64,000 nucleotides of DNA, from NCBI GenBank assembly GCA_024508935.1, contig JANINW010000027.1, positions 94,376 to 158,375 of the forward strand, written 5' to 3'. Position numbers and translations under genes: made by a program. The notes under the pieces were generated by a model. That model searched no databases. It had not been told where the DNA came from and saw nothing but the letters and a program-made list of their open reading frames with translations. Positions 2,817 to 4,963 of the stretch are shown here, piece by piece; the stretch's first letter is position 1; each line of letters starts with the position of its first letter. The stretch comes from Flavipsychrobacter sp. GTDB taxonomy: Bacteria > Bacteroidota > Bacteroidia > Chitinophagales > Chitinophagaceae.

Positions 2817-3641
2817 ATGAAATCCTTCATTTTCATATTCATAACCGGCATTTTTTGTTCTTGTACCTCCCAAAAGAGTTTCACACCCCCAACTGTCCAA
2901 AGAAGCGGGTACTTGAAATTCAGAAATGATCCAACGCTTTCGAATTATCAGGGAATCCCTTTAAAATATCCAATTTACTTTTTTCCGACAGAGACCTTTT
3001 GCGACAGTTTTCTAACAGATGGGGATCATATTATGAATAAAAATCTAACTAATAAAGCAGAGGCCAGTAAGTATTGGAATATATCGGCCGATAAGATTAG
3101 AGATACTATGATTGTAGATTCTTTTGAACCTCAACTTTTCTCGAGTATACTTACAACAATGCACCTACCAATTCTATATAATTATTTTCAAGGAAAGACA
3201 GTTTATCGTCTATCATATATTCCAGGAGTTATGGGAGAGTATTGGTCTGTTACAGTGTATAGTAATGGTAAAGACTCAGCTTTCGTTTCATCAAAAATCC
3301 TTTTCACAGGAAATGATAGTCTTTTAAAAAAAATACCGTTTATTGATTCAAACAGAGTGGTGAGCTTTAAAGAAACAAATATAAGCTACACTGATTGGGA
3401 AACACTTGATTCGTTAGTAACCTATACTGGTATAACCAATGAATGGTATGACCATTACGACAACACAATGAATGATGCAGTGGGATTTTTATTTGAAGTG
3501 CATCGTCCGCAAGGTTATTACTACATATTTAGATGGGATCCTAAAAACAAGACTTTCCGAGAAATAATTCGAAAAATAGTACTTGTAAGTAGTATTTCGG
3601 AAAAAGAACAAAACATTTACAACCTGATTTATAAGTTCTAA
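2817..3641 (+). CDS. orphan lipoprotein, AT-rich
   Basis: I do not recognise the family. The 274-residue product begins with a short signal peptide and a lipobox-like Cys cluster ([10 protein letters not shown]), so it is probably a lipid-anchored envelope protein. The body is rich in Tyr, Phe, Ser and Asp without repeats or membrane segments. Base composition is visibly lower in G+C (about one third in sampled lines) than both neighbours (about one half), which suggests recent acquisition or relaxed selection. It starts 82 bases from the divergent aldehyde dehydrogenase start and its 3' end overlaps by 4 bases the convergent MNIO gene, so it is not part of that operon. Confidence 0.7.
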
Positions 3642-4765
3642 TCTTTCTTCTTCCATTTCTGCGCTATGTTCATAGCGGTTTCCAGCATATATGGCTCCCA
3701 TCGCTCCACCTCCCATGCAGTATTGGCAAGTGATGAGGTACACAGGGCATGCAGCGCTTCCTCATAACAGGCAGCAGTCTCCAGGATATTAGATAATTCC
3801 ATCTGCTGCGTGTATAGCTGTTCGTCAGCAAGCGGATGTGATAATAGTAATTTAGCGGGCAGGAATGTATTGTATGGCAGATGATCTGCATTGCTATTCT
3901 TCGCAGCTACTATCTCCTGCATCTGCAAAAAGTCTTTGTAAAACTGCTGCCTGCTTATTCCTGTTTTTAAGCCGGAACCCAATTGCTCCAATACAACATA
4001 CTTCAGGTTGGGGCATATATCTATTGCTGTCTTTAACAATTCAAATACTTCTGCAGGTACACCATTGTCATGGGTATCTCTTCTTACTTTTTTGCCAGGA
4101 GAGGTTTTTGCAGGCTCCCAGCTGCCGCCGGAAATATGTATCTCGCGTACACGCTGTAAAGGATATAGCCGGACAATATCATCAAATGGCAAGGAGAAGT
4201 TGTGTAACTGGCAATAGAGATTGTGCAGATCAAGAATAATAAACCCATTAACAGGCGACACTAATTGTTCCAAAAAATCGCCATGACGTTTTACATCATC
4301 AGCCGTATAAGAAAAAGCCAGGTTTTCGAGCCCTACAGGCAGGCCACAGGCATCCTGTATCCTCGCCAGCCTGTCGCGGCCTAAAGCAAGTGTACTATTG
4401 GTGTAAGGTATACTTAATGGGGCACCGGAATGAAAATCCTTACCTGTCATAAAACCGAAATGCTCAGTAACATGATCGAAATTATAGAGGGTGGCTACCT
4501 GTCTTAAATGACGCAACCACTGCTCTTGTTCTGCTGACCATCGTCCCGAGAACAAAGAGAAGAAAATACCGTGACCTATAAGCCGGCGCTCTTTACCATA
4601 CGTATGCAGCAGCTCCAGGAACCAGGGCGGGATATTGTTTTTCTTATACAGCGCATCGAAAGACCATTCAATGGCCTCTACCCTTGCCTCACTCAGCAAA
4701 GGAAAAGATGCCGACAAAATATCAACATCAAGATTGCATGCTATTGATGATAATATTGCCGGCAC
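3638..4765 (-). CDS. DUF692 / MNIO-family RiPP-modifying oxidative enzyme with C-terminal extension
   Basis: Residues 1-285 form a DUF692 (multinuclear non-heme iron oxidative, MNIO) TIM barrel. Candidate metal ligands and family motifs are all present: GHG (His65), TEHFGF (Glu101, His102), GLENLA (Glu147), ILDLHN (Asp179, His181), REIHISGG (His210), DTHD (Asp230, His232) and VVLEQ (Glu260). Relatives (MbnB, TglH, ChrH, BufB) use iron and oxygen to convert Cys residues of ribosomal peptides. Family members are usually about 280-300 residues; here about 90 further residues (285-375, helical, with Cys333 and Cys342) could be a fused partner or peptide-recognition domain, because no separate partner gene is next to it. 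The start is GTG 4765, in the same frame as and 33 bases after the stop of the peptide gene at 4799-4963, its probable substrate. Confidence 0.88.
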   Translation of the reverse strand: MPAILSSIACNLDVDILSASFPLLSEARVEAIEWSFDALYKKNNIPPWFLELLHTYGKERRLIGHGIFFSLFSGRWSAEQEQWLRHLRQVATLYNFDHVTEHFGFMTGKDFHSGAPLSIPYTNSTLALGRDRLARIQDACGLPVGLENLAFSYTADDVKRHGDFLEQLVSPVNGFIILDLHNLYCQLHNFSLPFDDIVRLYPLQRVREIHISGGSWEPAKTSPGKKVRRDTHDNGVPAEVFELLKTAIDICPNLKYVVLEQLGSGLKTGISRQQFYKDFLQMQEIVAAKNSNADHLPYNTFLPAKLLLSHPLADEQLYTQQMELSNILETAACYEEALHALCTSSLANTAWEVERWEPYMLETAMNIAQKWKKKD

Positions 4766-4798
4766 CTTTACGAGAAATGAAACACTATAACACCAATT

Positions 4799-4963
4799 TT
4801 AACCAAGCCCGCAAGCAGGGCATGGATCATGATTTTCTTCTACCTGCACCGGCGTACCATTGGGGTTGGCAGGTGTTGGCAGGTTCTTATCTTTTTTACA
4901 GGAAGTTGTTTGTACGGCTATCCCTAATAAGATAGCACCCAGTAAAGCTTTCGAAAGTTCCAT
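4799..4963 (-). CDS. 54-aa lipoprotein-like RiPP precursor ending CPACGLG (probable MNIO substrate)
   Basis: Short gene that starts with ATG at 4963 and stops with TAA at 4799. The peptide has a charged start (MELSK), a hydrophobic helix (ALLGAILLGIAV), a lipobox-like QTTSC followed by KKDK, a Pro/Asn/Thr-rich linker, acidic VEENHD, and the C-terminal core CPACGLG with a CxxC pair. It has coding character in only this frame and lies 33 bases upstream of the MNIO gene. This layout matches known MNIO RiPP precursors of Bacteroidota (chryseobasin-like), in which C-terminal Cys residues are modified. The lipobox implies export and anchoring of a peptide with a modified CxxC, a plausible metal-binding surface lipopeptide. 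The modification and the metal role are inferred. Confidence 0.85.
   Translation of the reverse strand: MELSKALLGAILLGIAVQTTSCKKDKNLPTPANPNGTPVQVEENHDPCPACGLG

Follow-up and report, generated by a model that had tools for sequence, protein, structure and literature searches.

A 54-codon gene ending in CPACGLG and the MNIO enzyme gene beside it, both found in a 64,000-nucleotide stretch of a Flavipsychrobacter sp. assembly (here called the window), raise the question of what peptide the two produce, and whether it is of a new kind. The pair is real and well conserved, and it belongs to a published kind, the DAG-RiPPs, rather than to a new one, because peptides of this kind from related bacteria, that of DybA and DybH among them, have already been reported and produced in laboratory work (PMC12636315). 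That the locus is of DybAH type seems to us very probable, its chemistry and lipidation being extrapolated from those published for DybA and DybH. What the DNA itself displays is the gene pair, the motif, the conserved positions of the putative ligands, the predicted domain layout, co-conservation, and the presence of lgt and lspA.

DAG-RiPPs, comprising DybA/DybH of Dyadobacter crusticola and relatives, are the subject of a bioRxiv preprint of November 2025, which describes a minimal unit of precursor and MNIO genes without an obvious partner gene, the enzymes carrying a fused C-terminal helical bundle (PMC12636315). The seven-residue CPACGMG motif alone suffices for DybH, whose product is lighter by 4 Da, contains a macrocycle and a hydantoin, and is without the UV feature that methanobactins or bufferins owe to their aromatic groups; DybA is lipidated through the lipoprotein pathway, and the function of DAG-RiPPs is stated there as unknown (PMC12636315). 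The CPACGLG tail is absent from the main text of the preprint. The window pair adds a further host and this tail variant to a widespread peptide kind.

The gene pair and the families of its products

Features of the window locus, with positions counted from the first nucleotide of the window
Feature	Position	Strand	Basis
Precursor peptide gene, DybA/ChrA-related, 54 aa	4799..4963 (stop included)	-	NF050125 match; aligned with DybA and nine relatives
Predicted signal peptide, residues 1-21, TTS before the lipid-accepting Cys	4901..4963	-	Sequence reading
Cys22, predicted lipidation site	4898..4900	-	Alignment; equivalent Cys lipidated in DybA (PMC12636315)
CPACGLG C-terminal substrate motif, residues 48-54	4802..4822	-	CxxCGxG end common among related loci
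MNIO enzyme, DybH/ChrH branch, 375 aa, GTG start	3638..4765	-	PF05114, DybH identity, structure model
Branch-specific extra domain, enzyme C-terminal helices, residues 315-370	3656..3823	-	Model; NF050165 alignment

The precursor frame opens on the minus strand with an ATG at 4963 and closes with a stop codon at 4799-4801, and a 33-base gap (4766-4798) separates it from the downstream enzyme gene, whose GTG start at 4765 coincides with the start of the DybH match; the initial annotation had placed the 54-codon gene, its CPACGLG end and the 33-base spacing exactly so. A 274-residue lipoprotein-like frame on the plus strand (2817-3641) converges on the enzyme gene, the two ends overlapping by four bases. 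This protein has no clear family (best Pfam match 13.7 bits, cut-off 25; none in NCBIfam), and no counterpart was seen in the other 87 neighborhoods compared.

Comparisons draw on 88 related loci, from which the duplicates L058 and L065 were removed and the window's own entry (L057) was left out. They rely on the best 80 of 170 confirmed loci from a contig scan (including D. crusticola DSM 16708, L131), which were chosen by likeness to the window enzyme and so represent near relatives; other Hymenobacter and Chitinophaga species than the published HymAH and ChsAH strains are among them.

When peptide and enzyme were run against family models, as the initial annotation had proposed, each had a match over cut-off (NF050125 and PF05114). 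The precursor passes the NCBIfam model NF050125, "chryseobasin-related MNIO class RiPP peptide" (67.2 bits, cut-off 40, E = 1.6e-18), so the NCBI library already names such a peptide kind; the model had no match in 14 control genomes. Against the Chryseobasin ChrA model (NF050124) the precursor falls short, at 13.2 bits versus a cut-off of 50. It consists of a hydrophobic start, TTS followed by Cys22, a linker that contains several Pro, and the CPACGLG end. Sequence reading and alignment place a lipobox, TTSC, at the end of the hydrophobic signal, closing at residue 22; this Cys is identical in all 11 aligned precursors chosen from the 88. Among 88 precursors (the window's included, the relatives drawn on the best 80 of 170 loci), the predicted lipidation Cys lies at residue 21-27, preceded in 87 by Ser, Ala or Gly.

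The DNA pattern that encodes exactly CPxCGxG and a TRR stop, counted in the 11 genomes having the pair, occurs once in the window's own assembly (98 contigs), at the window locus, where the reversed-pattern control gives none. Each other pair-bearing genome has one to five occurrences, some of them chance matches away from an enzyme; the reversed pattern gave a single match over all 11 genomes.

The enzyme is the one protein of its assembly that matches Pfam PF05114 (MbnB_TglH_ChrH; 101.5 bits, cut-off 25). Residues 11-372 align with NCBIfam MNIO_ChrH (NF050165) as far as profile position 361 of 363, and the score of 378.9 bits lies below the 600-bit equivalog cut-off, which is passed in none of the 147 family genomes; DybH-side enzymes seem to fall below it likewise. 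Identity to DybH of D. crusticola is 60% (222 of 373 aligned columns). By FastTree distance the nearest enzyme is that of Taibaiella (L077; relatives drawn on the best 80 of 170 loci), and in another tree no well-supported group of up to half the rows held the window enzyme.

All 91 aligned enzymes, two ChrH-type proteins included (relatives again drawn on the best 80 of 170 confirmed contig loci), have the same residue at nine positions (H65, H102, E147, D179, N182, H210, D230, H232 and E260), in keeping with the earlier statement that the candidate metal-binding residues are intact. As metal ligands these nine are candidates, some assigned from what we take to be the ligands of MbnB, and the positions were also compared by alignment with two solved DUF692 chains, 8hci and 3bww. 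Published passages on HvfB, in which N175, D242 and H244 are the site-3 residues, contributed to the assignment (PMC13419390). An AlphaFold2 model (44 alignment rows; pLDDT 88.6, pTM 0.90) predicts a barrel followed by C-terminal helices at 315-330, 334-342 and 358-370, that is, a C-terminal helical bundle, and its nine top-ranking matches among solved structures are chains of TglH, MbnB and 3bww.

Co-conservation and neighborhood

Co-conservation had been named beforehand as a test by which the pairing could fail, and it was found in each sample in which both genes were sought. Among 147 family genomes, the peptide exceeds its cut-off in eight and the branch enzyme (E < 1e-100) occurs in the same eight; a further eight have partial enzyme matches only (38-60 bits), and a further four have peptide matches only, all below cut-off. 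Both genes are present in the same four of 15 genus genomes, the window's own included, and neither in the other 11. In a phylum sample of 395 genomes, six (again counting the window's own) have an enzyme match with E no higher than 1e-60. A frame ending in CxxCGxG lies on the same strand within 700 bases upstream of the enzyme in 87 of the 88 related loci (from the best 80 of 170), the exception being L096, a MAG contig whose available stretch has the enzyme without a recognizable peptide gene. As a two-gene unit with patchy spread (four of the 15 genus genomes), the pair offers a convenient case for deletion and phenotype work.

Some relatives carry more than one precursor. Two or three CxxCGxG genes stand within 700 bases upstream in 8 of the 88 loci (from the best 80 of 170), and two or three precursor-like genes stand within 1100 bases in L062, L064, L077, L085, L088, L097, L100, L105 and L126; four of the extra copies in these nine end in CxxCGRG. 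Tails without Pro, where the published motif is CPxCGxG, include CITCGRG (L064) and CIACGRG (L097), as well as CLSCGMG (L083) and CQGCGMG (L095) in single copies. One genome of the same genus has a weak second peptide match away from its enzyme (G152:C6:179592-179726; 22.6 bits, below cut-off), and three pair-bearing genomes (L032, L033, L034) contain another, distant MNIO-like frame, 305-341 codons long, which scores 67-69 bits with NF050165.

Besides the enzyme, the most widely shared neighbor recurs in 10 of the 88 loci (from the best 80 of 170), as judged from frames of at least 100 residues within 6.5 kb compared by blastp at E up to 1e-12; several contigs end nearby, and L101 (whose enzyme frame was unmatched to its hit) was left out together with the duplicates L058 and L065. 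The genes upstream of the window pair read as CDP-glucose and deoxysugar enzymes; they are common to L066 and L067, two of the three other pair carriers of the genus, and so probably belong to the chromosomal background. The pattern TTTG-N17-21-TAnnTTTG, which we take to be a Bacteroidota promoter consensus, was absent from the 300 bases preceding the precursor in all 88 loci (from the best 80 of 170).

No partner gene adjoins the pair. A search of the assembly for DUF2063 (E up to 0.001) came up without a match, and the sole match to PF08592 (Anthrone_oxy), presumably the DUF1772 of ChrI, scores 41.5 bits and lies on another contig, so an unlinked helper is possible. The initial annotation was right that no partner stands beside the pair, and went too far in contrasting this with most systems, a partner-less pair being what the preprint describes for the branch (PMC12636315).

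The predicted product

The window locus and DybA/DybH share a precursor gene upstream of the enzyme gene, a lipobox Cys, a CPxCGxG end, the lack of a partner, the helical bundle and 60% enzyme identity. They differ in the tail (CPACGLG in the window, CPACGMG in DybA, thus Leu for Met), in the longer linker of the window precursor (54 versus 50 residues in all) and in genus, the window pair being known from sequence. By their published description, HymA/HymH of Hymenobacter and ChsA/ChsH of Chitinophaga belong to the same branch (PMC12636315). HymA shares the Leu of the window tail and, with its end CPGCGLG, was modified to a product 4 Da lighter (PMC12636315).

The earlier likening of the pair to chryseobasin- and bufferin-type systems holds for the chryseobasin branch, by the NF050125 and DybH matches, and fails for bufferins, the DybH product being a macrocycle with a hydantoin (PMC12636315). 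Kinship with chryseobasin would allow an S-methylated product (+10 Da) in place of the unmethylated one: subfamily and tail motif are the same (ChrA ends in CPACGMG, and its MNIO has extra C-terminal residues; PMC10214503), and ArlAH, a myxobacterial relative, yielded a product mixture (PMC12636315). We nevertheless consider this improbable, since the window enzyme shares 60% identity with DybH and 40-42% with L149 and L150, the two enzymes passing the ChrH cut-off (DybH itself is 41% identical to L149), and since DybAH, ChsAH and HymAH, three named Bacteroidota pairs outside Chryseobacterium, all gave the -4 Da product (PMC12636315). The published chryseobasin cluster differs in having ChrI, ChrE and ChrP and an S-methylated product (PMC10214503), and the precursors beside L149 and L150 have no Cys outside the tail, as described for those of Chryseobacterium (PMC12636315).

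That the product is a copper-binding lipopeptide of bufferin or oxazolin type, bearing a thiooxazole or an oxazolone-thioamide, is very unlikely. BufB and HvfB share the MNIO superfamily and Cys chemistry with the window enzyme, and lipoprotein signals occur on a subset of bufferins and oxazolins (PMC12636315), but those systems have DUF2063-type partners (for which the search of the window's assembly came up empty), other motifs and copper-binding groups (PMC12636315, PMC12452194). The window precursor, for its part, lacks EGKCG and had no bufferin family among its matches up to E = 1, and its enzyme scores far below the cut-offs for BufB (NF050167; 85.1 versus 310 bits) and the HvfB family (68.2 versus 360 bits). 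Nothing was found in support of the copper-handling role that had been suggested for a surface peptide. It is just as hard to credit that the small gene encodes an unrelated lipoprotein while the enzyme acts on another substrate: DybH needs the motif and not the rest of the peptide, which makes other substrates conceivable in principle (PMC12636315), but peptide and enzyme co-occur without exception in the family and genus samples, and the assembly holds no second exact CPxCGxG-stop pattern in a search confined to Pro-bearing tails.

On the DybAH-type reading, which we prefer, an enzyme with two or three irons, its own C-terminal helical bundle taking the place of a partner protein, would act in the cytoplasm, recognizing the CPACGLG tail and using O2 to remove four hydrogens. 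By analogy with DybA, a macrocycle would join Cys48 to the former Cys51, a hydantoin would form and one thiol would stay free (-4.03 Da), after which the modified peptide would be exported, lipidated on Cys22 by Lgt and cut by LspA. The mature lipopeptide would then stay anchored in the envelope, perhaps exposed on the cell surface, although such display is speculative. Of the new modified lipopeptide foreseen by the initial annotation, the exported lipopeptide is thus probable, while novelty of kind falls to the published DAG-RiPPs (PMC12636315).

Lipidation and a possible surface-export signal

Lgt and LspA both have matches over cut-off in the window's assembly, whereas the Lnt matches there (22.9 and 19.6 bits) lie below the cut-off of 132.9, which makes triacylation in this host uncertain. 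In other Bacteroidota, lipoproteins are directed to the surface by the K-(D/E)2 signal of Capnocytophaga and by the acidic signal of Bacteroides (PMC6222051; see also PMC11885536), and the residues after the lipidated Cys of many relatives resemble such export signals. The terms "export signal" and "surface" are absent from the main text of PMC12636315, and the wider literature search was confined to the export signal. We suggest, tentatively and with more doubt than confidence, that the ring-modified lipopeptide is displayed on the surface or in outer-membrane vesicles by means of such a post-Cys signal (Lys, then acidic residues); the resemblance, if real, would make the cell surface the place to look for a function.

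The resemblance was counted in 88 precursors (87 relatives, drawn on the best 80 of 170 loci, and the window) aligned on the lipidated Cys. Lys stands at +3 in 49 of them, and an acidic residue (Asp or Glu) fills +4 in 42 and +5 in 51. In 17 of the 88, Lys at +2 or +3 precedes two acidic residues; with each linker shuffled 2000 times, which was the comparison used, the mean was 1.3 and the maximum 6 (the precursors themselves are related rather than independent). Under the same control, Lys at +2 or +3 with at least one acidic residue after it occurs in 31 (shuffles: mean 6.9, maximum 16), and two acidic residues from +3 or +4, whatever precedes them, in 24 (mean 6.3, maximum 14). The corresponding stretch of DybA, CADMDI, is without Lys; that of the window, CKKDKN, offers Lys and a single acidic residue, a partial match to the export signal.
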